This document shows positions 2,812 through 64,000 of a DNA stretch of 64,000 nucleotides, in pieces. Under the pieces are notes generated by a model that saw only the letters and a program-made list of their open reading frames with translations, had not been told where the DNA came from and did not search any database. Source of the stretch: Sugiyamaella lignohabitans (lineage: Eukaryota > Ascomycota > Dipodascomycetes > Dipodascales > Trichomonascaceae); contig NC_031672.1 of NCBI RefSeq assembly GCF_001640025.1, positions 3,720,001 through 3,784,000 on the forward strand. The letters are read 5' to 3'. Within the stretch, counting starts at the first letter, position 1, and each line of letters begins with the position of its first letter. The position numbers were made by a program, and so were the translations under genes.

Positions 2812-2872
2812 TGCCTCCGGCGGCTGGGGCTCCGCCCCAGACCCCGCTGCTCCTCTCGCTTCGCTCGAGTCG
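2812..2872 (+). repeat. GC palindrome, C arm (left of inverted pair)
   Basis: A complete 61-nt C arm: TGCCTCCGG start, GGGGC-loop-GCCCC hairpin, then a CTCGC-loop-GCTCGAG hairpin ending in GAGTCG. A run of seven G lies just outside its TGCC end (2802-2808). Confidence 0.9.
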
Positions 2873-2940
2873 GGCTGGGGGGAGCCGCCGCAAAATTTAG
2901 TTCCTGAGAAGGTGTCGGACTTTGCTGGTTCCCTATGTGA

Positions 2941-3001
2941 CGACTCGAGCGCAGCGAGAGGAGCAGCGGGGTCTGGGGCGGAGCCCCAGCCGCCGGAGGC
3001 A
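2941..3001 (-). repeat. GC palindrome, C arm (right of inverted pair)
   Basis: Inverted partner of the arm at 2812 across a 68-nt spacer. The two arms match at nearly every stem position and could form one long fold-back. Confidence 0.9.
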
Positions 3002-4500: not shown

Positions 4501-4561
4501 CGACTCGAGCGTAGCGAGAGGAGCAGCGGGGTCTGGGGCGGAGCCCCAGCCGCCGGAGGCA
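4501..4561 (-). repeat. GC palindrome, solitary C arm
   Basis: A complete arm 97 nt past the NMD5 stop codon. The end away from TGCC extends as CGACGCC, an extension shared with the solitary arms at 26496, 42245 and 42484. Confidence 0.9.
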
Positions 4562-4658: not shown

Positions 4659-7600
4659 CTAATGTTTGGGTTGCTGGTTGAGCTTGTTCTCAGTTCTGCT
4701 GGCAAGTTCAAAGGTCTTGTCAACAACAGCCTTGTCTTGCTCGTTGTATTCGTTGGTGAGCAGTTGGTAGCGTGGTTGGTTGTTCTGGTTGAGTGCCAAA
4801 AGAGTGTCGCGGAATGCGACATATGCGTTTACGGGATCAAGAGGGGTTTCTTCAAACAGCTCCTCTTCCAGCTCGTTGCCCTTTTCAAAGAAATCCGAGT
4901 CATCGTGTTTAGCAGCGAGTTCAGATTCAAGGTAGCTGACATATTCAGCATCCTCGACATCGTCAACATTACCATCGGCATCCTCATGACCCTGTGCAAG
5001 CTCGTCGTCGTCACCACCCCACTCTTCGTCCTCATATGCACCGTCAGAGAAATCATCATATGCGTCTATGGAATCATATTCCTTAGCAAGTTTCTCTTTA
5101 TTTTCCACAGCTGCTGGTAACGTGGCGACAATGCTAACGAGTCCTTTACTCAACTGAGACAGGTTGCCATGAATAGCAGCGGGAATTTGCTCATCAGGAA
5201 GAGCGAAAATCGCCAACAGAGCTAGAATCGACACCTTCTTGTCCTGGACACGCGAGAAACTCTCCATACTTTCAAACCACAGGGTGAAAAAACCTTGGGT
5301 AAATCCCTTGGACTCGAGGAATACAAGTGTTGCTTGGGCATTATAGTACAAAGATGCAATCACAACCTCCAGCAAATGCACCTTATAAGCAATGTTCTTT
5401 AATGCGGGCTCGTTGGATTGTAAACGGGACACCACCAACTCCAGGAATCGAGGAACATATGCATCAATCTGTCCTCTGACAGCCGTCAGAAGTCGAATAG
5501 TCAGGTTACAAGCAACAGTACGATCGGTAGCTCCAAGCGACTCGGTGTCGACCATGACTTGCTCGATAACTTCATACATAAGACCCAAGTTCTCGCCATC
5601 GGCAACCAGTGCCTCAGCTCCGTACTGAATGTAGTTGCTCAAACAGGGCAGAGCGTCTTCAATATAATCAAAACCGAAATCACGCAGTGACTTGTGAACA
5701 AGCTTGTAAACCTGCCACATGTTGGGAGAAATGGTCTTGATTGTGAAAGTAATGTTTTCAGCCAAACTCCAGATCTCATTGTAGAATTCTGACAGTTCAT
5801 TACCGAGAACTGCAGCAAAAATAGGCATAAAAACGTCCTCGAGTTTCAGAACAATGTCACTGGCATTGTCAAGAGCCAGCAAAAGACTGGTCAGGGTATT
5901 GAGGATACCCAAAGCAGCCATGGTCTTTTCCTCACTGGCCACATCGTCGAGGTTACTGACATCCTCAGGACCAGCATTGTACTTTTCAAGCAATTCACCG
6001 GCAATTCTCATGAACTGATCTCTCAATTGAGTAGCCAGTTGAACGGAAAACGGCGTTAGTTGTTCAGAAAACACCTCGACAAACTCCTCCATGACTCCCG
6101 ACAATGCATCAATATCGATTTTATTAGCCAAATCGAGCAGAAGTTGCATGACTTCTGGAATTCGAGTCGACAACGCAGCACGCACGTTCTCATGACGGAT
6201 CATAGGCTGTAATGCCAGAGCTGCCTCTACTTGGACTGGCAAATGCTCGTCAGTCATGCACTTCAAAACACTCTGGTAAGCGACCGACACATTCTCCTCG
6301 TTGGAAAATGCAGTATCAGCATATCTGTTGAGGAACTCGCAAGCACGGGCTCGTAAGAATCCATAAGCACTGTGGAAATCTGGGAACACATACTGCACCA
6401 AGAAAGACTCCATTTGATCAACAATAGGACTCTGTTTGCTCAACACAATATACGAGATGGCTCCGAGCATCCTCAGAGCACCCTCCTTCTTACGACTGAG
6501 CTCCAAATCTCCCTGGTTGGCAATATGGCTTGCAACCACTGTTTGAATAAACTGCAGGGTAGGCGTGAAAACTGTCTTCCGTCTCTTTCGCACCAATTTC
6601 AGCAAGAAATTAGTGGCGGCCACATCGGCTGTAGGTGACTCCTCAAAAATGTCAATGCGCTCGTGAATGTACTCCTCAGGCTCCTCCTCGAAAGTCTCTA
6701 AATCAGCGTCACTAGGACACAATAATGGGAACACGACGTGGGAAATCAGCACCTCGGAATGCGGTTTGAGAAGCAACCACGTGCTCTTAATACCAACACA
6801 CTCTTCAAAGAAAGACAGAATATTATAGAGCGACGCTCTTCCAAGCCAAGTACGTTTCTCGATCCACAGCTGGATTTGTTCAAAATACGCCTTGAGAATC
6901 TCGGGAGCGAAATTGTCCAAAAACATTTTGCTGAACTCCTTGTACTGAGCCTCTCTGTCGGACAGATTCGACAGAATCACATATCTCGAGAACAGTCGGA
7001 ACAGGTTAGCATACGCCCATTTCTTACACTTGACCCAAGGGTGCACTTCACGCTCGTCTTCGTCCAGAGCCAGCACCTCTTCCGGAAGCTCTTTTCTAAT
7101 GACCTGCAAAAATAGCGACCCCCATCCTACTACAGACTCTCTCTGTCGAAGTGCTACGGGCAGTTGTTGCTGTTTAATGTTAGTTCTAGTTCAAGTCTTT
7201 TTTGTGGAGGGGGGACTCTGCCTCTGGCGGCTGGGGCTCCGCCCCAGACCCCGTGGCTCCTCTCGCTTCGCTCGAGTCGAGCGTCGGAGGAGTGGAAGCA
7301 GAGTGAGTGAGGTTCGGCACTTACATAGCTGGCCATTTTGTAGATTTTCAGCACATCACGAAGCATTTCACCTGCAGCGGCGTTGTTTTCGTTTACAAGC
7401 GAGTTGCCAACGCTGAGGACTCCGGCAAAAGCAATTTCAATGACACCGTCGAGTCCTACACGCGACTCGCCGCTAGTCCATCGGTAGTATCGTGCTACTT
7501 CAAGAAGACACGTCAGTCCACATCGGATAGAATCCACATCGTTGTTTTGGAAAAGCTTCAATGTTACATCAAGCAATTCGGGCCATTGCTTAGGGTAGTC

Positions 7601-9202: not shown

Positions 9203-9342
9203 TGCCTCCGGCGGCTGGGGCTCCGCCCCAGACCCTGGTTGCTCCTGCTGTGCAGGAGACTTACCGGGACCCCCGCAAAAACGACTCGAGCGAAGCGAGA
9301 GGAGCCACGGGGTCTGGGGCAGAGCCCCAGCCGCCGGAGGCA
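9203..9342 (+). repeat. Full composite GC palindrome (~140 bp)
   Basis: B arm 9203-9258 (ends CTCCTGCTGTGCAGGAG), diverged spacer 9259-9281, inverted C arm 9282-9342. The outer flanks extend the inverted repeat (GGGGTC before, GACCCC after). Confidence 0.92.
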
Positions 9343-11964: not shown

Positions 11965-12041
11965 TATTTAAACGTAGATAGACACGATCCTGTAATTTTT
12001 TATCCACCTAAGCTCTTCAAACGGCCCCCTCCCCACGCCAA

Positions 12042-12096
12042 CTCCTGCGAAGCAGGAGCCAGGGGGTCTGGGGCGCAGCCCCAGCCGCCGGAGGCA
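12042..12096 (-). repeat. GC palindrome, solitary B arm
   Basis: A 55-nt arm with the CTCCTGCGAAGCAGGAG hairpin, between the convergent SMP3 and HIS5 stops (77 and 32 nt away). No C partner is present. Confidence 0.88.
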
Positions 12097-12128: not shown

Positions 12129-13436
12129 CTATTCGCTGTAAATTTCAGCGAGCACCGATTGTAGCTCCTTGAGAAGAATTGTAGTTTCTTCCTCGTTGCC
12201 GATAGAAATACGGAGACAGCCAGTACATCCAGGCTCTTTGCCTCTGTATCTTACAATGACGTTGCGGAACTCGGCCAGTTTAGTGTACACTTGACGGGCA
12301 ATGTCGTTAGAAGGCTTGCCGTCTTTATCAATGATCTCGACAAGCAAGAAGTTGGCATCCTCTCCGCCTACAAACTCGCCAATACCTTGAAGTTTAGGCA
12401 GTTCACGTACCAATCTGTCTCTTTGGACGATGATTTTCTTGACAAGACCTTTCATGACCTTGATTCCTTCTGGGGACAGTACTCTTGAAGCCAGTCTAGC
12501 GGTAGGAGTAGAAATGTTGTAGGGAGCTTTCATGCTATTTAGCAGACGAGATAGATCAGGAGATGCAAATGATACACCACATCGCACACCGGCAAGACCG
12601 AACGATTTACTAAGAGTTTGCATCACCAGGAGATTGGGATACTTATTTACAAGAGGTGCCATTGACGTGCCTTCAGGCGCGAAGTCGATGTATGCCTCAT
12701 CGACAACAACAATGCCGTTCCACGTAGGATGTTCCAACACTTTAATTATGTCAGCTTTCTCGATAAGTGAGCCTGTAGGGTTACCTGGCGAGCAGATATA
12801 CGCCAGTTTGATGGAGGGGTCTTCGGCGAGCCTGGCGTTGATCTCGTCGGGTTTGATAGAGAACTTGCCCTTGATAAAATTCATGTTGATAGAGACAACC
12901 TCTACATCATTGATCTGGGCGGAAACTGCGTACATTCCGTAGGTAGGTGGACATGTCAGCAGTTTATCTTTGCCTGGAACACACAGTACTCTCATGATGG
13001 CATCGATGGACTCGTCTGATCCCACTCCAAAACACAGATTCTCGGGCTTCAACACCTTTCCATTGAGTGTTTGTTTATCGGCAGAATTGATTTCACTGTT
13101 TCTGAAATCACACATCAATTGCTTCAATTCGATTTGGTGAGGATCTGGGTACCTGTGCAACTCCTGTTCTTCTTCGTCGGCATCGATCGAGCTCAGCGAC
13201 GGCCCGTGTGTGTTTTCGTTTGCATCCAGTAAAATTCCAACTTTGTAGTCACTGAACCTGTTAGATTTATGGGGGGGTTGGTGTGCCTCCGGCGGCTGGG
13301 CTCCGCCCAGACCTGGTTGTGCTCGCTTCGCGAGCTAGCGGGTGAGGTCTCGGTCTACTTACTCTCGAGCACATCTATAGGGCTCTAGAGCCAAAATATT
13401 GGGTCGTGCCAGCGTCTGTAAATTAAATGAAGCCAT
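12129..13436 (-). CDS. HIS5: Histidinol-phosphate aminotransferase
   Basis: Two exons (13363-13436 and 12129-13257) give 400 residues; S. cerevisiae His5 is 385. The join codes ...CAR-E-FSDYKVGILLDANENTHGP, matching the conserved His5 N-terminus exactly where expected. The enzyme is a PLP-dependent class I/II aminotransferase converting imidazole acetol-phosphate and glutamate to L-histidinol-phosphate. Visible motifs: LHRYPDPHQ, GSDESIDAI, SPGNPTG, VVDEAYIDF, the PLP-lysine segment TLSKSFGLAGVRCG, and RYRGKEPGCTGCLRISIG near the end. The intron (13258-13362) is only 105 nt and about half of it is a GC palindrome arm. A TGACTC Gcn4-like core lies ~100 nt upstream, fitting general amino-acid control. 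Confidence 0.96.
13284..13335 (+). repeat. GC palindrome arm, shortened, inside HIS5 intron
   Basis: A 52-nt variant: the first hairpin loses one pair (GGGCTCCGCCC) and the second is GCTCGCTTCGCGAGC. Stem pairing is preserved despite the deletions. It is antisense to HIS5. Confidence 0.85.
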
Positions 13437-26495: not shown

Positions 26496-26556
26496 CGACT
26501 CGAGCGAAGCGAGAGGAGCTACAGGGTCTGGGGCAGAGCCCCAGCCGCCGGAGGCA
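26496..26556 (-). repeat. GC palindrome, solitary C arm
   Basis: Complete arm in a promoter region, 170 nt upstream of the pseudouridine gene ATG. Loop variants are CTAC and CAGA. Confidence 0.9.
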
Positions 26557-26725: not shown

Positions 26726-29403
26726 ATGTTGACAATGATTTCACGGAGTACGACTCTTAAACTTCCTCGAGGATACTCTGGGAGTGTGGTGAGACGGATA
26801 TTGGCCGGCAATGGGTGTCGCAAGTTCGGATCAGTGCCTCTTCAGGTGTCACCAGAGGTTCAACAGGCGTTGGCTGATAAGAAGCCAATTGTCGCTCTCG
26901 AGAGTACTATTATCACACACGGACTTCCATTCCCTGAAAACTTGCAAATGGCAGCCGATGTTGAAAGTATCATCAGATCTGAAGGTGCTGTGCCCGCAAC
27001 GACAGCGTTTATCAATGGAGTTCCACTCGTTGGAACTACCCCCGCTGACCTGGAATATCTGGCTGGAAAAAGCTCAAAATCGAAGATGGAAAAGATTTCC
27101 AGACGAGATATCCCCTATATAATGAGCAGAAAACTCAGTGGTGGCACCACAATTGCAGGAACTATGATTCTCGCCCATAGAGCCAACATCAAAGTGTTCT
27201 CGACTGGTGGACTCGGTGGTGTACACCGCGGAGTCGAATCCTCCTGGGACATCAGTGCTGACCTTGACGAGCTGGGTCGAACGCCCGTTGGTGTCGTCTG
27301 TAGTGGTCCAAAGAGCATTCTTGATATTCCTCGTACTATGGAATATCTCGAGACAAAGGGTGTACACGTGTCGACTCTGGGTCCCGTGGGCACAAATATT
27401 CCAGGGTTCTATACTCGGGACTCGGGTGTTCCAGTAAGTGTTGGTTGGGACGCTGCCTCCGGCGGCTGGGGCTCCGCCCCAGACCCCGTGGCTCCTCTCG
27501 CTCCGCTCGAGTCGGGTGTGGGTGGGTCCCTGAAATATGGGTTTTTGCTGTAATGGAGATTCTAACTGGTGTTCTTTAGTCTCCTTTTAACTTTCAGTCA
27601 CCAGAACAGGCAGCAGAACTTTTATGTGAGTATTCTATTATGAAGGTCTATGGATGTTTATGAGTCTAACTGCGTAGATGCAAATCATTTGATGGAACTG
27701 AACTCAGGTAGTGTATTTTGTATTCCTGCTGATGAGAAGATTGCTCTTCCTAAAGAGCTGATGGATGCTATCATTGACGATGCTATTGCTGAATGTGAGA
27801 GAAGAGGTATTAAAGGTAAAGATATCACGCCGTTCCTTCTGGCAAGTGTTAAAGAAGCGACTGGAGGACAAAGTGTGAAAACCAATGTGGAATTTGTCAA
27901 GAATAATGCTAGAATAGGTGCTAGAATCGCTGTTGCTTTGGCCGCTTTAGAGGTAGGTGTATTCTTTTAATTGCTAGCCGTTACCATTTCACTGATATTG
28001 AAAGAAACTAACTTGTTCAGAACGGGTCGGGATCCGGGGCCAAAGTAGACTCGGCTGTAATCCAGCCAGCAATCACAGCTACAACCCACGCTCCTCCAAC
28101 TACTTCGAAAAGCAGTACACCTTTACCCATTACCAAGGCAGACAAAGGTTTCTCAGAAAACAGTTCCATTATATCTAATGTCACCATTAGTAACAAATGT
28201 GACGCAGTGGTAATAGGATCTCTGGCAAGAGACTTGACTTGTACTATGAGCCAAGCGCATAGCTCTTTTAACCGCAAGACCTCGTATGCTGGTGAAATTG
28301 AGTCTAGCATCGGCGGTGTGGGCCATAATGTCGCATTGGCCGCTCTCTACGCTGGAGCTAATGTTAGACTGGTATCAGAAGTGGGTCATGACCATGGCGA
28401 TTTACTCGATGCTGTTTCAAACGAAGGATTGGAGTTATCGGGAATAACAACTAATGAGGGCAAAAGAACTGCTCGATATGTTTCTATGAATGATGGAACC
28501 GGTGAACTCCTTATCGCATGTGCTGATATGGATATTATTAAGGACATGTCTCCTAAACACGTCTATGATGAAATTTGCCGGGCTGATGCTGAGTGTGTAT
28601 TCTTTGATGGAAACATCGGCAACGACCAGAAAATGGCTGTTATACGTGCAACTAAGCGAAAGACTGGGCTTGAGACTGGGACTTCGACACCTCGGTTCGT
28701 CGGGTTCGAACCTACTTCGGTGCCGAAATCAAGCGAGTTGGCTGCCATGAGTCTAGGAGTATATCCAAACCACGATATCGATCTTGCTACACCCAATATT
28801 GACGAGCTGCAAACCATGTTCGAGTCATTTCACGAAGCAGGAAGGTTTGATGTTGACCATTGGTTTCCAGTAATTGATGCTCTGGGAGTGAATGAAACGC
28901 TGAGATTGGGTTTAGAGAATCTTGCCAGGTCTAAACCTGAGCTTATAAACCTCATACGGTCAGGTATAGCCCAACAAGCTCTGCACTTACTGCCCTATAT
29001 TCCAAACTTGATGATCAAAAGTGGTGTTTTAGGTGTTCTCTCGTTTCAACTTCTGGACGCCGACCAAATTCGAGACCTGGCTCGTTTTGGACCCTCTGTA
29101 ACCAACAACACAGTTGGGAAGTCCATTTCAACGCAGATTGCATATAGAGAGGGTCAGCTTCTAGGAGTATTGGTGCAACACTACCCTGCGTTTGATATTT
29201 CACCCTCAGAAGTTGTGAGTGTCAGCGGTGCTGGAGACAGTTTCTGTGGAGTACTCGTAGCCAAATTGGCAAAAGACACCAGCTGGCTCTACACTGCTAA
29301 CCAGCAGAAAGCAGATGTCATTGATGCTGCTCAACTGGCAGCCAGTCTAGCGATTCAGACACTGGAAGCTGTCAACCCAGAAATCAGATCAATTACAATT
29401 TGA
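26726..29403 (+). CDS. Bifunctional pseudouridine-5'-phosphate glycosidase / pseudouridine kinase
   Basis: Four exons (26726-27433, 27580-27625, 27678-27952, 28021-29403) give 803 residues. The N-terminal half (~35-345) is a PsuG/IndA glycosidase that splits pseudouridine-5'-P into uracil and ribose-5-P; motifs are ALESTIITHGLPFPEN, GTTIAGTMILAHRA, GGLGGVHRGVE and GPVGTNIPGFYTRDSG. After a Ser/Thr-rich linker the C-terminal half (~405-803) is a PfkB/ribokinase-type kinase (SSIGGVGHNVALAALYAGA; catalytic SVSGAGDSFCGVLVAKL). The fusion is known in fungi and animals but absent from S. cerevisiae. The N-terminus (MLTMISRSTTLKLPRGYSGSVVRRIL) is basic and amphipathic, suggesting mitochondrial targeting. 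Intron 1 carries a GC palindrome arm. Exon 2 has two in-frame acceptor choices (AG at 27579 or 27596). Confidence 0.92.
27454..27514 (+). repeat. GC palindrome, C arm inside pseudouridine gene intron 1
   Basis: Full arm in intron 27434-27579, sense to the gene, beginning 20 nt after the donor. It leaves the frame open past the donor for ~100 nt. Confidence 0.9.
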
Positions 29404-29512: not shown

Positions 29513-29573
29513 CGACTCGAGCGTAGCGAGAGGAGCAGCGGGGTCTGGGGCGGAGCCCCAGCCGCCGGAGGCA
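29513..29573 (-). repeat. GC palindrome, solitary C arm
   Basis: Between convergent genes: 109 nt past the pseudouridine gene stop and 11 nt past the AIM18-like stop. Confidence 0.9.
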
Positions 29574-30768: not shown

Positions 30769-30824
30769 TGCCTCCGGCGAATGGGGCTACGCCCCAGACC
30801 TCCATAGCTCATGCTCCGCATGAG
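30769..30824 (+). repeat. Degenerate GC palindrome arm (B-like)
   Basis: CCTCCGGCGAATGGGGCTACGCCCC, then a second hairpin CTCATGCTCCGCATGAG. The second stem differs in sequence from both B and C arms yet still pairs perfectly. Confidence 0.7.
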
Positions 30825-31212
30825 ATTCTCAAGTCATTGATATTAATTATATTAATTACTCACATAACTGAGAGAACCATCGACTTAGAAATTAAGTCTT
30901 TGCCACTAGAAACAACACCGATAAACTACTTAGATTACTATTTCTGCTTCATCAGCTCGTCCATTTATTGTTGCTTCGTCTCTGGATTGAATGAGCCGAA
31001 CTTTAGGCGGCCAGTTGAATTTAACATTCTGGAGATATTAGACGGAAAGCTCGCTCCGCACTCTTAGCTGGAAGATCCGAACCTTTGATACCACAGGAAC
31101 CAGACCCATGTGGTAGTACGGAAATACTATCGAAGCGCCGTTGCTTATTCATCCTGGACTACTTATACATGGGCTAGGGCCTAGCTACCGCACGAATACC
31201 ACTTCACTGCGA

Positions 31213-39560: not shown

Positions 39561-39697
39561 TGCCTCCGGCGGCTGGGGCTACGCCCCAGACCCCATGGCT
39601 CCTGCTTCGCAGGAGATGGCTGGGACCGTGGAGAGTCGACTCGAGCGGAGCGAGAGGAGCAGCGGGGTCTGGGGCGCAGCCCCAGCCGCCGGAGGCA
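39561..39697 (+). repeat. Full composite GC palindrome (137 bp)
   Basis: B arm 39561-39615, spacer 39616-39636 (ATGGCTGGGACCGTGG...), inverted C arm 39637-39697. It fills the space between the convergent RRB1 and PQ-loop stops (32 and 10 nt away). Confidence 0.93.
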
Positions 39698-42244: not shown

Positions 42245-42305
42245 TGCCTCCGGCGGCTGGGGCTGCGCCCCAGACCCCGCTGCTCCTCTCGCTGCGCTCG
42301 AGTCG
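42245..42305 (+). repeat. GC palindrome, C arm
   Basis: 63 nt past the NDUFA6 stop and 56 nt past the RIC1 stop. With the arm at 42484 it brackets the last RIC1 exon in inverted orientation. Confidence 0.9.
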
Positions 42306-42361
42306 GGCGTCGGGAGTGAATTGGTGTTAATATATCATGAATTACTATGCATTTAGAGCCT

Positions 42362-45300
42362 TCATTGAGACTGTTTTAATGGCACTCCGACCGACTCGAC
42401 CGTCTCTCGTAGAAGTTCCATCGATGCTGACCTTGTTAGTATCACCCTCACTCGAAAAATCTAGTAATGCCACCCCCCACGCCCGACTCGAGCGCAGCGA
42501 GAGGAGCAGCGGGGTCTGGGGCGGAGCCCCAGCCGCCGGAGGCACGTCTCCCAACCAGAATACTTACGGTCAACAGCGGTCAGAAACCGGGTGAGCTCTT
42601 TACACAGGTCCCAGTCGCCGCTTTCGTACGCCAGTTTGAACAGTTGGACGGTGTTGTCTCGGGCATCATCGGTGCCTTTGGATAGACTGTGAAGAATCAG
42701 GAGGTAGCCAGCAGCGGTCTTGAGTTTGCCTAATAATACACATCGCTCGAACAGTTGTTGTGGCGAGCCAATGACTTTGAACAGCCGTTTCCAGTACTTG
42801 ACTTCTGTTTTCCGGGTACAACCGAGGAAAATATCTAGCATTTGGGGAAACTGGAACACCAGGTCCGCTGCTTTGACAAGCAGTGAGTTCTCGGATATGT
42901 CCGATTGCGAGTCGCTAGTAGGACTGGCATCACCCTCGGTTTGTCCTTGAGCGCTTGCTGGAGTCAGCGAGTCGGGGTCTGCTTCAGCTCCCTCAGATAT
43001 CAGGATTTGGTACAAGAGCATCTCGAGAATATGGCTGAAGTATTTCAGGTGTTTGTACTCGTTGGCAATGGTAACGGCTTTCTCGTAGTTGCCCATTTTC
43101 AGTACCGATTCAAGAATAAACGGCACAAACAGCTGGGTACTGGTCCAGAACTTGAAGTATGTAAAATAGTTTTCTCTGGATGGCAGAGTGTCTGTTTCAA
43201 TTCCTGTAAGAATACCTTTGTCCATGAGCACTGCTATAGGATACGACTCGACAGGAACCACAGCTGGCTTGATTGACGAAAACTGGCTGTTGTAGTCCTT
43301 GATCCAGACAAGCATGTTAGTGCCATCAAAAGCCCATAGCATGCAATGATACGAGTTATCTTTTCCTGGCGGAGTGATGAAGTAGTATTCGATACTGTGA
43401 TGGAGAAGATGCTTTTTGTACGAGGTGATCGGTGGTCCACTGGCTGGCTCGAAAATAGTCAGCATTCCATCTACTAGGAATACAAGTTTCAAGTTATCGG
43501 CAGTAATGGGGATGGTAGGGTCTTGATTATCAGCGAGAAGACCTTCTATACACCTCACACGTGCTGGTGAGTGAACTAGTCCGTTAAGAGAAATCTTATG
43601 TTCAAGGTCAAGCGACCGAATGTCGTTACCACTGATTGACGTGATGCGGTAAAAGTATACATTGTTGTCATGAGCATACACGACAAGAAGATTCTGAATC
43701 ACACACATCTTTAGGATTGGTGCACCAATCTCCTCTGATGTTACCACGTAGTACGAGCTTAGTTCCAGCTCTCGCGAGTAGATCTTGATCTCATACTTGT
43801 ACTGATCAGTATCAACAGCCACAATCAGAAAATGTCCATACCAAATCATACCTGCTCGCACCGAAATTTCTTTGTCCATATACTCCTCGGTGAATAGCTT
43901 CCATCTTCCACTATATAGACTGTAATGTGCTAATCCTCGAACCCCTGCCACGGCAATATATCGACCATCAGCTGACGACGACACGTACCGTATGGGCCAG
44001 TTTTCTGCCATGTAGTTTCCAGGTATCGTCACAGTCAACCATAGCAGAGCATCTCTGTCAATCGTGGTCAGATCGGATTGTTCTTGACCTCTGTATATAA
44101 GTATCTTGTTGCTCTCTTTAAGAAGAACCGGTCGTTTAAGATTGTCGTGAGTCCAAGTGCCAACTGCTCCCCATTTAAGAAATCCCTGACACCAGAACTC
44201 CTGTCTGGATCCCTCTGATGACAGTATAAAGGCGGAATCGCCAGAAAATGTCCAACACACTTTTTTAATTCCTCCTAGCCAAGTCTCTTTTGTTTTCTGG
44301 TCGTTTTTAATAAGAAAAGACGACGCGTTGGTCATTCCATATACAGAATATAGGATCCAGCCATGTTCATACCCTGCCAATAAAGTACATCCGTCAGACG
44401 ACCAGCTCAGACACCTGGGTGATCCTGATGATGAAAACGACGGCGAGTCCATCTTATTCAGTAGCTTTGATGTACCTGAATAGTCTCTAATATTGTACAA
44501 GTAGATTGACCCGTTAGAGCATGCCACTGCTATTTCACTGAACCGTGCATTTATTGAAGATGATATGGCCGGGGGTAATGTTGGCCCATCTGATGGTGGT
44601 GATGATGAATGCAAAATGTAACCTTTAAAAACCATAGATGCTGGTTTCGACTTGTTTGTACTGCCTTTATTGAACTCTGTCAGAGTAGCCGAGTATACAG
44701 AGCCTAATTGTGTCGTTATAGAGAAAAGAGACATGGCCTTGCTACGGGAAATGTGGACGATTTTTTTGTAGCCCGATTGAGACGCTAGTTCTTTTCCGGA
44801 TTCTTTGTCATTTCGGTCGCTGTCAAGCCATTCTAATTCCGAATGCACAATCGTATATACTGGTTCTGATGTAATCTTCTCATTGTGCCATTTGAAGAAC
44901 TTTGTTACTTCTGTTGTAGACACCATGATATACTCTTCTAAAGGAATTATCGATGTAAAATGCGGTCCAGCAGGGCTATTTTCAACCTGTGCTTTTTCAC
45001 TTTCTCCTCCATTAGCCTTGTCTGAATCAGTTTGGAGTTCTTTATCGACTCCCGACCCTCCTGACTCGCTTCTGTGGCCATTAGCAGCAGTGTCATCAGC
45101 ATCACTAGTACGAACATGGTCCTTTATAACCCCACAAAACCGTATTCTCATCTCTCTGACACCCAGAGCCTCTCCTGGACCGGGATATGTCTGTATAAGC
45201 GATTCGCTGAATGACTGTCGTCGACTATAGCTATTGTAGAACCCCGTGTCGTTAGCCCCTCCTGCACTGCTCAGAGACTTGTCGCCAATGCTGGAAGCCA

Positions 45301-45967: not shown

Positions 45968-46600
45968 GATTCCTAGCCAGCCACCAGTTCTCTCTATAAA
46001 TTTCAATTCACTCCTCAATCCTTTCTTTCGCTCCCTATTTCAATTTCCACTTCTCTTTTCTTTCTTTTTTATTTTCGCTACTGACTCTTGTTAAACACCA
46101 CTGGCTGCCCACGGTCACCCCTAGCTCGCCTGTCGCTCTCCGTGGTCAACTGTGATCATCTGCATGAACTTCAATACCAGCAGCTTCACAGGGGTAATCA
46201 GCGTGTCTGCGGCGGTGGACCCTGCATTGACGGGGGTCTGCCTCCGGCGGCTGGGGCTCTGCCCCAGACCCCGTGGCTCCTCTCGCTTCGCTCGAGTCGT
46301 TTTTGTGTGGGGTTGGTGTTTCTGTGGATTGTTTTTAATTTTGATATATAATCAATTGACCGGCTTTTGTGCTCGATTTTTCGGGACATTTCTGACCCGT
46401 ATTGCCATGCCGTATAAGAGTCCAGCGTCCAGAGTCCCTTATAGGGATGTATCAGCTTTTACGCTATCTAGTAATACAATTACAGGTTGATGTTGATGTT
46501 GATTTGAAACCAAACTTTATGATCTCTCTGTTCTGACCAGATCAACTGCTACTATTTCACATTCTCCACAGACTAGGCATGGAAGCCTGTATTTTATGAA
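45968..46600. other. Divergent RIC1/PAM18 promoter region
   Basis: Contains a CT-rich tract upstream of RIC1 (45990-46080) and a solitary C arm (46239-46299). No gene is seen. Confidence 0.5.
46239..46299 (+). repeat. GC palindrome, solitary C arm
   Basis: In a divergent promoter, about 270 nt from RIC1 and 300 nt from PAM18. A GGGGG run precedes it. It may reach nearby transcript leaders. Confidence 0.9.
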
Positions 46601-47047: not shown

Positions 47048-47184
47048 TGCCTCCGGCGGCTGGGGCTCTGCCCCAGACCCCGTGGCTCCTGCTTCGCAGG
47101 AGGTTGCTGGGACCGTGGAGTAACGACTCGAGCGAAGCGAGAGGAACCACGGGGTCTGGGGCAGAGCCCCAGCTGCCGGAGGCA
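47048..47184 (+). repeat. Full composite GC palindrome (137 bp)
   Basis: B arm 47048-47102, spacer 47103-47123 (GTTGCTGGGACCGTGG...), inverted C arm 47124-47184, starting 19 nt past the PAM18 stop and ending 87 nt before the next ATG. Confidence 0.93.
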
Positions 47185-47879: not shown

Positions 47880-47940
47880 TGCCTCCGGCGGCTGGGGCTC
47901 CGCCCCAGACCCCGCTGCTCCTCTCGCTGCGCTCGAGTCG
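47880..47940 (+). repeat. GC palindrome, C arm (left of inverted pair)
   Basis: 23 nt past the EXPERA stop; its far end extends as GGCGTCGGG. Confidence 0.9.
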
Positions 47941-48071
47941 GGCGTCGGGCTGCCTCGTGGTTATATTTCTAGGGACTTTCTCGTTAATAAAACTGTCAAA
48001 CTCCGGACTTCTGAACAGCCCCGTTCATGCACGCTCGAACTACCCCTGAACTGCTGGGACCGGAGACGCAA

Positions 48072-48132
48072 CGACTCGAGCGAAGCGAGAGGAGCGGCGG
48101 GGTCTGGGGCGGAGCCCCAGCCGCCGGAGGCA
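48072..48132 (-). repeat. GC palindrome, C arm (right of inverted pair)
   Basis: Inverted partner of 47880 across a 131-nt spacer. The spacer ends with GCTGGGACCGGAGACGCAA just before the arm, echoing the composite spacer, so this may be a composite whose B arm was lost. Confidence 0.9.
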
Positions 48133-52519: not shown

Positions 52520-52574
52520 TGCCTCCGGCGGCTGGGGCGCTGCCCCAGACCCCGTAGCTCCTGCTTCGCAGGAG
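52520..52574 (+). repeat. GC palindrome, solitary B arm
   Basis: 55-nt arm with loop GCT in the first hairpin and CTCCTGCTTCGCAGGAG at the end. No C arm or conserved spacer follows. Confidence 0.88.
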
Positions 52575-52999
52575 TTTCATCGAGAATCCAGTGGTTTATC
52601 GCCGGGTTGACGGTGGTGGTATGACCGAGGCTTCCAAGTACTTCCGAAGATTAGAATAGAAATGCCACTCAATCGCGATAAACTCTAGATCGACTTGAAG
52701 AAATCAATACAGAAACCGATATCCTGTGAAATAAAAAAGAAATTCAAAATAAAAATAAAAAAAAACTCGGCTGTGGTATTCTCGATCAGGCAGTTTGGCG
52801 GAGATAGAATACCATCAGGTTTTCGTCCTCGATTACCGATTTTCTATCTTTCATTCTCATAGGATACTTTTAAAACTCACGACGTTCAAAGATACTCTAT
52901 AAATTGCAGAATGACAAACACTCGGTCTGTAGAATCCAGTCTGCAAGGAGCTCCCCGTACTTAGTCCCTCTCAAACCCGGACCTCGGTTCAAATTAAGT

Positions 53000-53427: not shown

Positions 53428-56400
53428 ATGCCCACTCGGATTTCAGTAGAGGAATCCTCGGTACCGGCATCACATCTTATCGCCAACGGTAAAACTGCCA
53501 AGCTGAACGGTCGTCGAGTAGAGAACAACTTCAATCAGGATCCGATACAATCAAAGTTCACTGAAATGCCTGTTTCTGACAGTCTGACTGCTGTTGGACT
53601 CAAAACTAATTCGGTAGATAATAGCATTTATACCAATGGAACTACCAATGGTAGCGGCAATGCTCAGGATAAACTGGGATTGAGTACCTCTGGATCCATA
53701 ATTTCGGCGGTATCTGACACTAAAACCCATGTCCAAGAGAAAAAAGTGAAAATTCCTCCTCGGGTGTTCAAATCAAATATTATCGAATCTTATAAGATTC
53801 CTAATGATACTGTTCGGTTATCTCACGATCTATATGAAGACCTGGCCAGTCCCAAATATGTCACTATACAGTGTCTGACCAATGAGCTACAGGGTATTCC
53901 ATGGACACTCTTTCGAGCAGAGGTTGACGAGGCTCTGAATCCAAACACTTGTGCTATCAAATCGTCGATAAACAGCATCTCGGTAGGCACCAACTCGTCT
54001 CAACCTCGGGTGGTCCAGATCGCCAACACTGATCCCGTATATATAACCCATGCTATTGTCAGTGTGGATGCTGAATTCTACCACCAGCATCAAAATAACC
54101 CTCATAATGGCATACTACTCACGCAACTACGGCAGTCGCATATTCTTCGTCAGGGCGAACTCCATCCTGAAGTCGATGGCGGTTGTCGTATTCGAATTTG
54201 TGAACCTGTGGATCAGGGTCTGTTTGATCCTGCTAAAATCAAACTCACTGTTGTCTGTGATAATCATGTTAGCACCGTTTCTCTTCTTTCTCCTAATTCT
54301 AATGGAAGTATTGGCATGATCCAAAATGCATCTTCGGCTTCACTGGAATCGGACGACTCTCTGGATGTCGAGATCTCGAAATTCCTCGACGTCGATGACG
54401 ATGAAGACCAAGATAACACACTGGCTGCCAGTAATGGTCCTTCGGCTACTCTGTCGGTATCGGTACTCCAAAGACCCATTTTTGTCGACACCCTGACCCC
54501 TACTCCTGAACCGTTCGATGATATGGAAAGCGTGGCTTATGTTCGCATTGAACAGCTTGCCAAAATCGGCAGTTTGTCTGGTGATATTGTATGTTCTATT
54601 TGTTGAGGGACCTGCCTCCGGCGGCTGGGGCTCTGCCCCAGACCCCGTGGTTCCTCTCGCTGCGCTCGAGTCGTTTTCGTGGGGTTGATTTACTAACTAT
54701 GTTTCAACAGTTACTGTTGGAGACGGATGGCGGTCTTAAGAGACATGTCAAGGTATATTCGTATCCTGAACCAAACACTATTTCGTCAAATGAGATTTTT
54801 GTTTCGCCTTTAATGGTCTTTAATCTGAAATCTCCTCGCACTATTAAAATTTCGAAACCCAGTAATGGCACGTTCCCTATCTCGAGGTTCGTCAGAATCG
54901 CTAAAGAGGTGACAATTTCTAGACTAGCGTCACCTGTGACTACTGATAGATCTTTCCAGCAATCGTTCCTTTCCGGATTGAGAACGTATTTTGAGTCGTG
55001 TTGTCGAGTGGTCAGAATAAACGATATAATTGCTGTTCCAATCGATACAGTGCTTGCTCAAACTCTGTATGGAAGTACTGATATGGGAGCGGTTCCTGCT
55101 GGTAGACCAAACGATGTCGCATGGTTCAAGATTACTTCTTTAATACCAGGAAAAGGCTCTGGTGAAGATGATGAGCCTGGTGATGTAGAGTGTATTATTG
55201 ATCCGTCTCATACTAGAATGGTGCAATCGGGGCTTGTTACTGGACCTCATCCCAGTACCCTTTTGGGGTGGAGAAGCTATTTGTCGCTTGATAGATACCC
55301 TAATTATGGCCAAACTCTTGAGGGAGATGGATTCTCTGACAAACACAACTTCAAGCATGCAGCTGACTTGAGTCGATTGTTGGCAGCTAGCATCTCACCT
55401 CAAGGTGCTGCTTTACAAACGACAATTCTTGTGCATTCATCAAAACGAGGTGCTGGAAAGTCTACACTCTTAAAAAGTATTGCATCGCAGTTGGGAATCC
55501 ATGTTTTTGAAATCGATTGCTACTCTGTTACTGGAGATAATGATACAAAGACCATTGGTACTTTGAGAGCTAGACTAGACAGAGCTAGTACCATAAGCCC
55601 ATGTCTGGTGGTCCTTCGACACATTGATGCATTGGCCAAGAAAAACGACCAGGACGGAACTGATGGTGGTGGTCTTGTATCTAATTTGGTAGATACTTTT
55701 GAAGAGTACATTGGAACAAGCAGTAAGAAGAAGAACTCGTTTATTCTTTCGGCGACAGTTGCAGATGTCGACAGGCTGTCGGAGGCGGTGAGATCGAAAT
55801 TCAAGTTTGAAATCACTGTTTCAGTGCCTTCAGAATCGGAACGTAAGGCAATTTTCAAGTATCTTACTGAAGTGCCACTGCCCAATACTCAACTGACAGG
55901 TTTTGATGTGCGACGGGTCCAAACAGGGTTCACGCTGCGAAACGATGTGTCGTTAGAGACATTAGCATTACAATCAGCCGGTCTGACTCCACCAGACCTG
56001 GTGTCAATTATAGACATGTCGAAACAAAAAGCTATCAATAGACTACAAAAAGTGGCTAGTGGTCAAGGGTGTAGTTTGCGAGACCTTGTACTGTCCAGTA
56101 AAGGGCTGGTTAAAATCACCCCCGAAGACATTGAACAAGCTATTGGCGAAGCAAGATCGAAATATAGTGATTCAATTGGTGCACCCAAGATTCCTAATGT
56201 GGGCTGGCAAGATGTAGGAGGACTAGACGGAGTCAAGAAGGAGATTCTTGATTCGATTGAGATGCCGTTGAAGTTCCCACAGCTTTTCAGTGACGGGATC
56301 AAGAAACGAAGTGGTATTTTGTTTTATGGACCTCCTGGTACTGGTAAGACGCTACTTGCCAAGGCTATTGCAACGACATTTTCATTGAACTTTTTTTCTG

Positions 56401-57418: not shown

Positions 57419-57556
57419 TGCCTCCGGCGGCTGGGGCTTCGCCCCAGACCCCTCTGCTCCTCTCGCTCCGCTCGAGTCGGTTCCGTCGACGGTCCCAGCC
57501 AACTCCTGCGAAGCAGGAGCTACGGGGTCTGGGGCGGAGCCCCAGCCGTCGGAGAC
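57419..57556 (-). repeat. Full composite GC palindrome (138 bp), copy 1 of tandem
   Basis: C arm 57419-57479, spacer 57480-57502 (contains GTCGACGGTCCCAGCC), inverted B arm 57503-57556. The B arm has two changes near its end (GCCGTCGGAGACA). Confidence 0.93.
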
Positions 57557-57581
57557 AAAACCCCCGGTCCTGGTCCCGGTC

Positions 57582-57720
57582 TGCCTCCGGCGGCTGGGGC
57601 TGTGCCCCAGACCCCGCGGCTCCTCTCGCTCCGCTCGAGTCGGTTCTGTCGACGGTCCCAGCCAACTCCTGCGAAGCAGGAGCTACGGGGTCTGGGGCGG
57701 AGCCCCAGCCGCCGGAGGCA
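57582..57720 (-). repeat. Full composite GC palindrome (139 bp), copy 2 of tandem
   Basis: C arm 57582-57642, spacer 57643-57665, inverted B arm 57666-57720. Same orientation as copy 1 and separated by 25 nt. The spacers differ at one position only. Confidence 0.93.
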
Positions 57721-58692: not shown

Positions 58693-58754
58693 TGCCTCCG
58701 GCGGCTGGGGCTCCGCCCCAGACCCTGGTTGCTCCTCTCGCTTCGCTCGAGTCG
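58693..58754 (+). repeat. GC palindrome, C arm (left of inverted pair)
   Basis: 64 nt past the IRC22 stop; one of the arms with CCTGGTT in place of CCCCGTGG between its two hairpins. Confidence 0.9.
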
Positions 58755-58815
58755 GGCGTGGAGTTCGTTGTAGATTGAAAAATGAGATGATTCCACTGAA
58801 CTCTGACCCCCACAT

Positions 58816-58876
58816 CGACTCGAGCGAAGCGAGAGGAGCAACCAGGGTCTGGGGCGGAGCCCCAGCCGCCGGAGGC
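58816..58876 (-). repeat. GC palindrome, C arm (right of inverted pair)
   Basis: 61-nt spacer from the previous arm and the same AACCAGGG variant, so the two arms of this pair match each other better than they match the consensus. Confidence 0.9.
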
Positions 58877-58920
58877 CAGTCGTTCCACCCCGCGTATAAC
58901 CCGTCTGGTTCCCCGAAGCC

Positions 58921-58982
58921 CGACTCGAGCGGAGCGAGAGGAGCAGCCGGGGTCTGGGGCGGAGCCCCAGCCGCCGGAGGCA
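58921..58982 (-). repeat. GC palindrome, C arm (third in cluster)
   Basis: Same orientation as the arm at 58816, 44 nt further on and 72 nt past the MAM33 stop. CCCCCC follows outside its TGCC end. Confidence 0.9.
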
Positions 58983-60117: not shown

Positions 60118-60178
60118 TGCCTCCGGCGGCTGGGGCTGCGCCCCAGACCCCGCGGCTCCTCTCGCTTCGCTCGAGTCG
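60118..60178 (+). repeat. GC palindrome, C arm (left of inverted pair)
   Basis: In the MAM33 upstream region, 218 nt from its ATG. Confidence 0.9.
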
Positions 60179-60237
60179 GGCGTGGGGATGTCCAGTGTGC
60201 CCCGATACTCCCCGCCGAGCACAGCTACCCCCAAGCC

Positions 60238-60298
60238 CGACTCGAGCGCAGCGAGAGGAGCCACGGGGTCTGGGGCAGAGCCCCAGCCGCCGGAGGCA
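60238..60298 (-). repeat. GC palindrome, C arm (right of inverted pair)
   Basis: Inverted partner of 60118 across a 59-nt spacer; 171 nt past the cyclin stop. Confidence 0.9.
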
Positions 60299-60469: not shown

Positions 60470-62503
60470 TTAATTAGTAGTGGCGTTTGTGGCGGTAGTG
60501 GCACTGGTGGCAGTTGTGGCGGTCGAGACTGAGGAGGAGGATGACGTGGTGGAGACAGAGTCGGTGTGAGAATTGGCAGCGGCCCGTCGTCGTCGCATGT
60601 AATCAGCCACGAAAAGCGAGGCCCGTTTGAATTTGCGGTCCGAGTACTTTTCGTAGATGGCTTTGTGGTGTTCTAGAGGGTGTTCACAGCATTCTAGTAA
60701 CACTTCGACAGCAGGATTGAGCTGGACGGCCGTGTAGCCGGAAAAGTAGACGTGTGCACTGGTCCATTCGCCTCTGTTGAGCATGAGTCGGGCCAGATAA
60801 TGAGCTGTAGCAGCGATCCACGAGGGAAGTGCTCCTACAAATCGCTCGTCCATCACCGAGATTTCTAATAAATATTTGGCTAGAGTTCGGGTCTCGAGAT
60901 CATAGTCATCAGCTTTCGAGGTACGACGTAGAAACGACATGGGTCCGGGCCAGCCAAGATTAAAATCCAGCAGATCAATCATATATCGCTCTGCTTTTAA
61001 AATCTCATCGGCACTGAACCCGTTTTCAACCATGTATACTATCTCCTGTACCGAGGGACAGTTGATCTCCTCGTACTTGGCAGCTAGAAACAGAGCTACA
61101 ATTCCTACTAACTGGAACTTGCTGAGTGATACCACTTTAATCGACAGAAATCGGTCCATATAATTAATTGTCAGGAACAACGTTTCTGGCAACAGATTAA
61201 ATCGATGGTGTACTTGCACCAACCAGTCTACTAACACTGATCTCATTGACCACTGAATTTCCGTCTGAAGGTCCATATACCCAGGACTAGGTCTCATTTT
61301 AACCTCGAGCTGTCGCATATATGCGAATATATCGTCACCGTACTCGGCGACCATGGAAATATCGTAAGTATCTTCGTCGTCTTCGTCGAGGATGCCCGGT
61401 CGACTGCGGATTTCATAGTATGCCTGACGAAGTTCTTCCTTATCGGCCTGCTCCCAAACCGGGAATAATGCATTTGGGTTGAGAACCGAGTCGTTGACGA
61501 TATTCATAACTGCCAGAGCTGTTGGCTCGGTCAGGTCGTGCAGCAGCACGTTATTATTACTTGTATCCTCATCATCGTCCTCGTCGTCATCCACTTCGAC
61601 CTCAATATCGTCGAACTCGTCGAAACTCGGTTTGTGCATTCCATGAACCCTGGTTCTGTTACCTGCACCACCACCACCACCAGTTACAGCTGCTACTGCT
61701 GACTGATGGTCTTCAACGGTATCGTAATCCTGTTCATATTCGACACTTCCACGACCAGAAGCCATACGTGTATCTGGTCTTTTGGTTCCTCTGTGAACAT
61801 GGTCGGCTATATCGAGCTCTTCGACTGTATCAATGTCCTCCATGGCGTCAGTTCGACGGTAGTACTGATTATGGACCTCGTAATCATCGTCCTCTTCTTC
61901 GTCCTCCTCGTCTTCTTCCTCGACCGTATCGTCACTATTAGGGTACCCGTCATGATCAACGAGTTCCTTCTGATGCTGCTGCTGCTGATGTTGCTGCTGT
62001 TGCTGTTGTAGCGACACCCTGCCATTTCTGGCCATACTGGCATTCCGCGAGATAGCGTTTCCGGCACTAGTCTGCCTGCCGGGCTTTTCTTTACTGTCAT
62101 TGTAGATAGAAACCTTCTCCACCAGCACGTTCTTGGCATCGAGCTGCCGTGGCTGTCTATTAATATTGGTCAGCGTCTGCAGAGCAGTCCGCTTCCTCGA
62201 ATTATTCTTCCCTACAGCGGTCACGGCGGCGGCCGCCGCCAGCCCCTTACTATTGGCCATCAAAGTAGGGGCATTTTCGTCGTTGGTTCGCGACACGACC
62301 TGTCCTGTTAGCCACTAGACTCGGGTGCCCTGCTGCCTCCGGCAGCTGGGGCTCCGCCCCAGACCCTGGTTGCTCCTGCTTCGCAGGAGTTGGCCGGGGC
62401 CGTCGACGCAACGACTCGAGCGAAGCGAGAGGAGCAACCAGGGTCTGGGGCGGAGCCCCAGCCGCCGGAGGCACTCCCCCCGTCAGGTACTTACTCCGTC
62501 CAT
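60470..62503 (-). CDS. Mitotic B-type cyclin (Clb/Cdc13 type)
   Basis: Two exons (62495-62503 and 60470-62299) give 612 residues. Exon 1 codes only Met-Asp-Gly; GTAAGT follows and the acceptor at 62300-62302 joins GTC GTG TCG in phase 0. A destruction box is visible (RTALQTLTN, residues 40-48). The N-terminal half is low complexity with poly-Gln and long Asp/Glu runs. The cyclin box spans ~345-600 (YMDLQTEIQWSMRSVLVDWLVQVHHRF, MDRFLSIKVVSLSKFQLVGIVALFLAAKYEEI, YMIDLLDFNLGWPGPMSFLRR), of G2/M type like Clb1-4 and Cdc13. It binds and activates Cdk1 for mitotic entry; the D box marks it for APC/C destruction. The 195-nt intron holds a whole composite GC palindrome. Reading from the intron-side GTG would lose the real start. 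Confidence 0.9.
62334..62473 (+). repeat. Full composite GC palindrome (140 bp) inside cyclin intron
   Basis: B arm 62334-62389, spacer 62390-62411 (TTGGCCGGGGCCGTCGACGC...), inverted C arm 62412-62473. It makes up 72 percent of intron 62300-62494. Confidence 0.93.
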
Positions 62504-64000
62504 TGTATGATCAGACTGTTAGTGGTGAAGTGAATGAGGCTCCATGCAAAACCAGAGTCGCTTGGCGAGTGGTGTGTGAGTGTGTTTTGGATGGCGGCTA
62601 ACACAGTGGGATTGTGGCAGCGTATTTGGGTATGTTTGTTGTGGTGTTTCACTGTCCGTTTCAGTGCAGAAAGTCTGTTGAACAAGGTTATTTGCCGTGA
62701 CTTGTTGCAACCAGTGGATAAGCGAGTGTTTAGGGGTCAAAAAGGCTCGCCAGCAGCAGGAACCGTGTGTTTTGATGTGTAATATTTGAAATTTCAATGA
62801 ATGTAAGGAGTGAAAGGAATGATTAGTAGAGTTAGTTGGATTTTTTTGGTTGTGTTAAAAAAAAAGAGCGTTGTGAGAACAAGAAAAATTCAAACCCCAA
62901 TAGTAATGGTACCTAGAGGCAGAAATGATAATTTCCGTTGGCTAACAAACCGTAAAGCGGCTTGTTTTTTGTATTTATACAGAATCGAGGAATGGGACCA
63001 AATGCGGCAATGGGTACACAAAAAAATAACGAAAATCGGTTACTGCAGTTTGAGCTGCTGGTGCATGCACCTGCTATTGGCATTCCCACCAGCATATTTG
63101 CCGCCAATCGCTGCGTCAACAACAAACAGAGAATGTATATCTGCTGCCAGAGAAGCGGCAATGAATGCGGACATCAACGGTCGGAATGGTCTCTGTATGA
63201 GCTCGTACCAGCTGGTTTGTGGTTTTCTTTCTTGCTGCTGTTGGTGCTGCTGTAGCTGCTGCTGTGCAATAGATCTGGCCTGAATCTGAGCCAATTCTGT
63301 TTTAGTACGAATTAATATTCGGTCAATTATTCTATGATAATTCCTGCAATAGCTGTAACTGCTGCATTTTGTATATCAATCAGCTTGTCAGTCACTGCCG
63401 CTTGCTACATGTCCAGTCAACCTCTGTCCAATACGAAGTTACATGATTAAAATATAATGAAATAACCAATAACCAATATCCACAACTAACTTCCTCGTGT
63501 GCTTTCACGGCGGCCGTTCTGCCTGCCTCTCTACACACATCTGCCTCATAACCGAGCGCTATGACCACTCGCCAGACCCCTCACCCGATCACCTGTGATC
63601 CACTTCAGGCGTGTTTGTTTAGATCACTAGCTGGGGGGTGCAGCCTCCGGCGGCTGGGGCTCCGCCCCAGACCCCGCGGCTCCTCTCGCTTCGCTCGAGT
63701 CGTTTTCCGCCACGATCCCAGCCAACTCCTGCGAAGCAGGAGCAACCAGGGTCTGGGGCGGAGCCCCAGCCGCCGGAGGCAGCACCCCAGCCAAGTCGCC
63801 AGGGCGGACTGCCTTCATTGTTGAGCGCATCTCGCGTGAGCTGGTGCATTTTTGGAGGCCCTTTTTGGTGTGGTGTGGTTGGTGAAGCCCGATTGTTATT
63901 GCCTGTTAGGTTGTGTTCTGACAACCGCTGTCTGACATGCGTGCCGGTCTGTACATTCTTGATCGGCCGGTGGAGATGCATGCTGTCTCGCCAGTAACCC
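62504..64000. other. Cyclin upstream region, right edge
   Basis: 1.5 kb with no gene that starts at an ATG and looks protein-like. A Gln-rich frame on the minus strand (63040-63294 and open to ~63380) has protein-like parts but no ATG. CAG-rich stretches occur at 63235-63270. A composite GC palindrome lies at 63642-63781. Confidence 0.5.
63642..63781 (-). repeat. Full composite GC palindrome (140 bp)
   Basis: C arm 63642-63702, spacer 63703-63725 (ends CGATCCCAGCCAA), inverted B arm 63726-63781. Outer flanks extend the palindrome (GGGGTGC before, GCACCCC after). Confidence 0.93.

Follow-up and report, generated by a model that had tools for sequence, protein, structure and literature searches.

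The window, that is, the whole 64,000-nucleotide stretch analysed here, covers positions 3,720,001-3,784,000 of contig 1 in the 15,932,016-base (15.93-Mb) genome of Sugiyamaella lignohabitans, which comprises four contigs of 5.93, 4.95, 2.77 and 2.28 Mb. Pfam matches were obtained for 8 of 10 open reading frames (ORFs) tested, including adenylate kinase, TRAP alpha, MAM33 and chalcone-isomerase-like proteins, and the copies of an inverted repeat (Table 1) are located on contigs of 2.3-5.9 Mb, in the gaps between genes of eukaryotic type. An earlier note had described seven composites of about 140 bp, each made of a B arm, a spacer and an inverted C arm; all seven lie where it placed them, apart from one end that moves by one base (57557, not 57556). 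Its count of about 36 arms is reproduced by the arm HMM used to locate arms, which gives 36 in the window at E <= 1e-3; counted by hand, 14 belong to the seven composites, 10 to five wider C-C pairs, and 12 stand single. One lone arm, at 27,454, lies some 20 nt downstream of GTAAGT between the parts of the Indigoidine_A-type gene and probably sits in an intron that tolerates it. The window also contains a tandem repeat of ~63 bp (32824-33074) that recurs at another sampled locus (L009, 2585-2712).

Table 1. Arms and arm pairs located in the window (positions count from its first nucleotide)
Feature	Position	Strand	Basis	Remark
B-spacer-C doublet	9203..9342	+	position check and arm HMM	given as B to C
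B-spacer-C doublet	39561..39697	+	position check and arm HMM	
B-spacer-C doublet	47048..47184	+	position check and arm HMM	
B-spacer-C doublet	57419..57557	-		spacer common to doublet at 57582
B-spacer-C doublet	57582..57720	-		spacer common to doublet at 57419
B-spacer-C doublet	62334..62473	+	position check and arm HMM	
B-spacer-C doublet	63642..63781	-	position check and arm HMM	
C-C inverted pair	2812..3001	.	arm HMM	unrelated interior
C-C inverted pair	42245..42544	.	arm HMM	unrelated interior
C-C inverted pair	47880..48132	.	arm HMM	unrelated interior
C-C inverted pair	58693..58877	.	arm HMM	unrelated interior
C-C inverted pair	60118..60298	.	arm HMM	unrelated interior
Lone C arm	4502..4561	-	arm HMM	
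Lone C arm	7219..7278	+	arm HMM	
Lone B arm	12041..12096	-	arm HMM	33 nt past stop codon
Lone degenerate arm	13284..13331	+	arm HMM	
Lone C arm	26497..26556	-	arm HMM	
Lone C arm	27454..27513	+		between two exon-like parts of Indigoidine_A-type gene
Lone C arm	29514..29573	-	arm HMM	12 nt past stop codon
Lone degenerate arm	30769..30825	+		hairpin 2 CTCATGC-TCC-GCATGAG
Lone C arm	46239..46298	+	arm HMM	
Lone B arm	52520..52575	+	arm HMM	
Lone C arm	54613..54672	+	arm HMM	7 nt past stop codon
Lone C arm	58922..58982	-	arm HMM	adjoining 58693 pair

Each arm of ~60 nt is built from a fixed prefix, TGCCTCCGGCGG, a first hairpin, the suffix ACCC(C), a short linker and a second hairpin. It starts with T-GCCTCCGGCGG, followed by hairpin 1 of the form CTGGGGC-NNN-GCCCCAG (7-bp stem, 3-nt loop; TCC, TCT, GCT, TGC and others occur as loops), and its type is defined by hairpin 2, which is CTCCTGC-TTC-GCAGGAG in B arms, CTCTCGCTNCGCTCGAG(TCG) in C arms and, for example, GCTCGC-TTC-GCGAGC or GCTCCGC-TTC-GCGGAGC in the D group. 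The B arm ends in CTCCTGCTTCGCAGGAG (CTCCTGCTGTGCAGGAG in the first copy), the C arm continues through CTCGAGTCG, and the spacers of B-C doublets resemble TTGGCTGGGACCGTCGACGNAA. Arms occur singly or as outward-facing inverted doublets, the B-C form at ~140 bp and the C-C form wider; of the 92 pairs typed at separations of up to 350 bp, 70 are B-C, 9 C-C and 13 others, and neighbouring arms alternate in strand (+- 74, -+ 64, ++ 14, -- 17). Searched at <= 3 mismatches, the arm core GCCTCCGGCGGCTGGGGCTNNGCCCCAGACCC gives 3,279 + 3,345 = 6,624 matches in the genome, or one per 2.4 kb, and the reversed pattern, as a genome-wide control at the same tolerance, gives 0 + 0. Dense clusters of exact cores are seen, among the matches listed, at C1:196-256 kb and C1:3033-3046 kb. 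The 140-bp unit is matched along its length at at least 43 places on all four contigs, a lower bound obtained with 40 of 2,043 candidates scored. The family is real and very abundant, and its conserved unit is the single arm, a fixed prefix plus two short hairpins, the spacer being hypervariable.

For quantitative comparison, a working sample of 351.6 kb with 290 arms of score >= 15 combines the window with 10-kb pieces totalling 250 kb (contig starts 80 kb, regions picked for doublets 120 kb, C2 2.00-2.05 Mb 50 kb) and with 37.6 kb of short pieces around selected copies; the 194 kb picked regardless of copies (window, C2 2.00-2.05 Mb, contig starts) contain 57 arms and 11 doublets of <= 160 bp. 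The earlier note took the ~140-bp composite as a defined element and considered its length of 137-140 bp near-constant. The doublet is indeed copied, but the conserved module is the two-hairpin arm and not the length: among 91 doublets of <= 160 bp, a sample much of which was picked for containing doublets, 65 fall inside 137-140 bp, the range is 133-160 bp, and the variation resides in the spacer. Outer ends are respected where length is not, and the proposal of a defined, dispersed and asymmetric doublet in nuclear chromosomes is borne out, the doublet having sharp outer ends and being copied as a unit.

The copying is evident from near-identical rare spacers in neighbouring doublets, found in either orientation, with flanks unrelated up to the terminal TGCC...GGCA. 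Doublets at C1:3,232,878(-) and 3,233,509(+), 631 bp apart, have a rare spacer in common and a whole identity of 0.99; spacers are shared likewise between C1:2,342,713(-) and 2,344,985(+), between C1:3,230,685 and 3,234,288, and between window positions 57,419 and 57,582, and tandem doublet copies stand 155 bp apart at C1:2,344,985-2,345,585. Spacer identity is >= 0.945 in 4 of 47 doublet pairs less than 5 kb apart, three tandem copies being left out, with 0.19 expected (0/5,000 permutations), whereas on average near pairs show no gain in spacer identity (0.648 vs 0.625, P 0.17). The 36 pairs with spacers >= 0.9 alike, whatever their distance, agree at 0.99 in base 2 of the element and at 0.79 in base 1, and identity drops to 0.42 and 0.21 just outside. 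A rare spacer common to doublets whose flanks are unrelated to the sharp ends thus marks the doublet as the copied unit; the same spacer sharing and sharp ends could also arise by gene conversion among copies already in place. Over 87 doublets, the arms carry a mean of 0.63 mismatches per 58 outer positions and the spacers are 28% off consensus (4-63%), the two being uncorrelated (rho -0.07, P 0.50, n=87). Per 31 positions, arms of short doublets show 0.40 mismatches (n=166), arms of wider pairs 1.06 and lone arms 1.26 (n=70).

The C-C form is a second pairing type with features of its own. Its arms agree in linker in 6 of 9 pairs, with 1.9 expected, and these matching linkers, together with the longer, unrelated interior, imply that some arms may have an origin other than the B-C form, which had been suggested as the source of most of them. 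The idea that wide-pair interiors are captured host DNA was dropped after they gave no other match in the 352-kb sample, save for one weak local match and one B-C-type spacer classed there by length. In one wide pair (L018:8182-8467) the interior is itself an inverted repeat for some 50 nt beyond the arms, and has the look of an arm duplicated in inverse orientation along with adjoining DNA.

For one hairpin-2 pair, the genome contains 1,839 consensus stems, 36 double changes, and 8 and 12 single changes, compared to ~0.05 doubles predicted under independence. The 33 doubles inspected of these 36 carry at least five linkers and several loops, and more than one event is therefore likely; recombination could have spread one such event, and six doubles fall within C1:844,547-849,045. 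At the hairpin-1 pair, singles (20 and 8) exceed doubles (5), two of the doubles being neighbours and three of the singles tandem copies. The covariation odds ratios are about 690 for hairpin 2 and 206 for hairpin 1. Judged from these compensatory changes, the hairpins are constrained or templated. One-sided stem changes on the arm strand comprise 16 G.T and 32 C.A (P 0.03), or 16 and 30 after merging tandem copies (P 0.054), and the lack of a preference for G.T over C.A gives no indication of an arm-strand RNA.

As single-stranded DNA, the first copy with its flanks is predicted to fold at z = -10.7, none of 200 shuffles being as stable, and one B arm is predicted to form both hairpins on either strand (z -3.7, -3.6); for a C arm including its G-rich tail, stability does not exceed that of shuffles (z -1.0, -0.6), with hairpin 1 still predicted. 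The apex of hairpin 2 reads GCGAAGC on the other strand, and GCGAAGC is an unusually stable DNA mini-hairpin. Pairing of the long palindrome as the constrained structure was rejected, the arms of B-C doublets having no excess of common linkers (4/70, 4.4 expected). They weakly share loops (31/70 vs 26.2 expected, P 0.022; 16/45, P 0.19, in another count), and paired covariation in the flanks is not consistent, with one position of 25 at z 2.9.

The G runs that the earlier note saw on the outer flanks are real: GGGG occurs within 16 nt before 144 of 285 arms, compared to 158 of 8,652 intergenic 16-mers away from arms, and the corresponding counts for CCCC are 16 of 285 and 168 of 8,652. Target-site duplication was sought at 91 doublets, and no excess of abutting direct repeats of k = 2-10 nt was found; a first sign of a direct repeat at an offset (z 5.0, out of many combinations tried) was not upheld on later test. 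All four contigs begin with at least 10 kb free of arms, and their first 20 kb contain 8 arms. Contig starts resemble one another (L001, L003, L005 and L007; 84-94% mutual likeness over the first ~1.1 kb), and carry AT-rich palindromes with the same GCTTCGC apex, as in CATTTTGCTTCGCAAAATG. Among mobile-element enzymes, the families searched in the genome were PF01797 (Y1_Tnp) and RVT_1. Y1_Tnp gave 0 matches, the same search being positive in 5 of 14 control genomes. Thirteen reverse-transcriptase (RVT_1) matches were obtained, at C1:3056215, C3:656590, C3:703545 and ten more places, and since three have identical scores, they are probably young retroelement copies. The stretches fetched for an empty site next to retroelement copies were non-homologous and gave no such comparison.

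Placed among known repeat classes, the doublet resembles several. MITEs have inverted ends, no coding capacity and high copy number, all of which the yeast doublets share; the first copy has 39-nt terminal inverted arms, 97% complementary, and so shows the terminal inverted repeats of a MITE. Yet no target-site duplication was found, no autonomous partner is known, and the internal hairpins are fixed. With regard to SINEs, the window gave no Rfam or tRNA match, and no target duplication was found at the 91 doublets. As bacterial REPs and REPINs are described in passages of PMC3116915 and PMC2817692, they too are intergenic inverted doublets of hairpin-forming arms flanking a spacer, better conserved as doublets than as lone arms, with tandem runs of near-identical doublets including flanks. 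The yeast doublets differ in residing in a eukaryotic nucleus, in carrying two hairpins per arm and in that a Y1 (RAYT-type) transposase was not found; their arms are without the GTAG/GGAG-led head of the REPs listed there, and CCGGCGG and CCTCCGG are absent among the REP passages of the two papers. The comparison with REPINs made in the earlier note is upheld for the design and not for the Y1 enzyme, so that the element counts as REPIN-like without being a REPIN by the tests applied. Mitochondrial GC clusters of yeasts, according to the portions of PMC4478555 that treat them, are 42-nt elements with flanking AG or ACT direct repeats, short GC-rich intergenic palindromes with no known enzyme, whose arms are recombined in many combinations and which are called mobile. 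The doublets have those general properties in common with them but are nuclear, 140 bp as opposed to 42 nt, and without flanking direct repeats as far as found. By analogy, the yeast doublet may work like a REPIN or a mitochondrial GC cluster. A prior description was not found in the open-access literature searched, including by the letters CTGGGGCTCCGCCCCAG.

With ORFs of >= 150 aa at <= 500 nt, the outer end points toward the nearest ORF in 31 of 37 lone arms (P 4e-5, for a rule noticed prior to the test; B 8/8, C 17/20, others 6/9), and over the 16 cut-offs tried the share ranges from 35/50 to 21/22. Pre-existing G runs were discarded as the cause of this polarity, outgoing strands away from arms having fewer G4 than C4 runs (16 vs 48 at 3' ends, 39 vs 63 at 5' ends). 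Polarity of this kind, taken with some arms 7-33 nt past stop codons, strong arm conservation and a unit density highest in convergent intergenes (1.02 per kb, vs 0.73 in tandem and 0.45 in divergent ones), would suit a cellular element under selection at gene borders, acting as boundary, terminator or mRNA 3'-end hairpin. The outward polarity is, however, present at gene 5' ends as at 3' ends, which excludes sense-strand 3'-UTR orientation, or a terminator, as the sole explanation although the orientation at 3' ends fits; the G.T and C.A counts argue against an RNA of the arm strand, and the window lacks an Rfam match. The copy number, the widely varying number of units per intergene and the arm-free first 10 kb of the contigs would also be unexpected, and we consider an element kept by selection at gene borders unlikely as the explanation of the family. 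An old immobile repeat, homogenised solely by gene conversion between copies, would explain homogeneous arms, diverged spacers and sharing that stops at the element ends, but it leaves the initial dispersal of copies unexplained, and conversion alone does not account for compensated changes exceeding single ones (36 vs 20); of the explanations weighed here, it appears the least probable.

Based on the collective evidence, the arms are understood, tentatively and with a confidence that stays somewhat below even, as a nuclear non-autonomous family of DNA-hairpin repeats whose maintenance and spread would result from breakage provoked by the hairpins and from ectopic repair. The arms would fold as DNA hairpins when single-stranded or cruciform, and the palindrome centre would be a site of breaks; a 140-bp palindrome reportedly induces meiotic breaks in S. 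cerevisiae, going by a title of Nag and Kurst from 1997. Repair from other copies would restore the arms while end-processing scrambles the spacer, and template switching or copy capture at a break could establish doublets at new intergenic sites without target duplication. Loss of one arm in repair may be tolerated mostly on the gene-distal side, leaving lone arms with the outer end toward the gene; some lone C arms retain a spacer stub (e.g., L019 2502). No dedicated enzyme would be needed, and hairpin formation in vivo by 7-bp inverted repeats is indicated by the title of a work cited in PMC13155455. We favour breakage and repair because it joins restored arms, scrambled spacers, distal-arm loss and capture without duplication in one scheme. 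Against it stand the outer G tracts and the arm-free contig ends, which capture at random breaks alone does not explain; the GG-type inner end, as in C-C pairs and not of B-C type, in 15 of 31 typed lone C arms; the mean spacer identity of near pairs, which is not raised; and the expectation of spacer sharing and sharp ends from gene conversion as well. Purifying selection for function would also keep arms and hairpins. Sharp inverted ends on a discrete unit, its high copy number and the presence of local copies would also be expected from a MITE- or IS200-like element with a putative transposase for which the hairpin arms are the recognition site and which leaves no target duplication, or a hidden one, on insertion. 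Given no abutting 2-10 nt direct repeat at the 91 doublets and, within the two enzyme families searched, no Y1_Tnp match, we regard such an element as unlikely.

Counterparts of the arm core occur in prokaryotes. The exact yeast core was found in three records of a prokaryote species collection, all Desulfovibrionaceae (L069 at 361 and 2514, L070 at 4654, L071 at 1282), with more GC hairpins after the core in all three; in L070 it begins 2 nt past the stop of a 397-aa ORF, the gene frame in L069 is unsure and L071 is without gene call. In IMG/VR viral contigs the exact yeast-type core gives 0 matches, and a looser pattern (prefix + YGGGG...CCCCR + GACCC) matches 13 stretches in 12 contigs of 60-69% GC; with reversed prefix or reversed suffix, as a control for that collection, it gives 0. 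Both contigs tested for genes, L076 and L079, encode terminase and portal proteins, L076 also capsid and DUF2460 and L079 an S78 protease, from which we infer prophage or gene-transfer-agent loci of bacteria. Inverted arm pairs measure 121-128 bp across in L073, L076, L077, L079 (two), L080 and L081, and 98 bp in L078; L073 and L081 appear near-identical. Gene polarity at prokaryotic loci, by crude gene calls, is 16 outer, 11 inner and 1 without gene. The composite had no match at 1e-5 among plasmids and, among phages, 17 records at E 0.1 or worse with coverage <= 21% among the matches listed. The Desulfovibrio stretch gave 71 weak plasmid records at E <= 10, none with 80% coverage, the L074 hairpin one Brevibacillus plasmid record (87% over 39 of 47 nt), and the L079 pair no match among phages.

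In 16 prokaryotic loci, most of them fetched by the same pattern so that stem and suffix shares are not independent, the prefix has 44 matches (<= 1 mismatch); a stem of >= 5 bp comes after 34 of them, and ACCCC after 26 of those 34. The pattern of prefix GCCTCCGGCGGC with YGGGG...CCCCR and GACCC is present at 56 of 68 yeast loci and at 16 of 16 prokaryotic loci, the latter having been fetched by the looser pattern or the exact core. The prokaryotic GCCTCCGGCGGC-hairpin-ACCCC repeats (L069-L084), for which no published name was found, share with the yeast arm the prefix, the short-loop stem and the ACCC(C) suffix, as well as inverted pairs around unrelated DNA in several contigs; they differ in stems that are often 8-10 bp and in that the second-hairpin module and the G-rich outer flank were not found in the stretches inspected. 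By eye, the suffix C run across L069-L084 seems to lengthen with the stem G run (CTGGGG with ACCCC, CCGGGGGG with ACCCCCC), as if paired in an alternative fold. Yeast arms and prokaryotic repeats could represent one self-spreading DNA-hairpin family, defined by prefix, short-loop stem and ACCCC suffix, that crossed between bacteria and the yeast nucleus and, having no transposase of its own, relies on the replication and repair of either host to multiply. We hold this to be rather doubtful. The likeness spans ~33 nt, many of its letters are bound to one another by self-complementary pairing, and chance matches are more frequent in GC-rich genomes, so that it is compatible with both convergence and common descent.

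Lastly, if the interpretation by breakage and repair is true, Sugiyamaella lignohabitans would present a compact eukaryotic genome carrying one arm per ~2.4 kb, many of them inside palindromes of the size that, by title (Nag and Kurst 1997), provokes meiotic breaks in baker's yeast. The family would then offer a natural system for asking what lets palindromes persist, spread and remain alike when no transposase is known. With a core common to bacteria, it would become directly testable whether DNA hairpins can act as mobile elements that lack an enzyme of their own.
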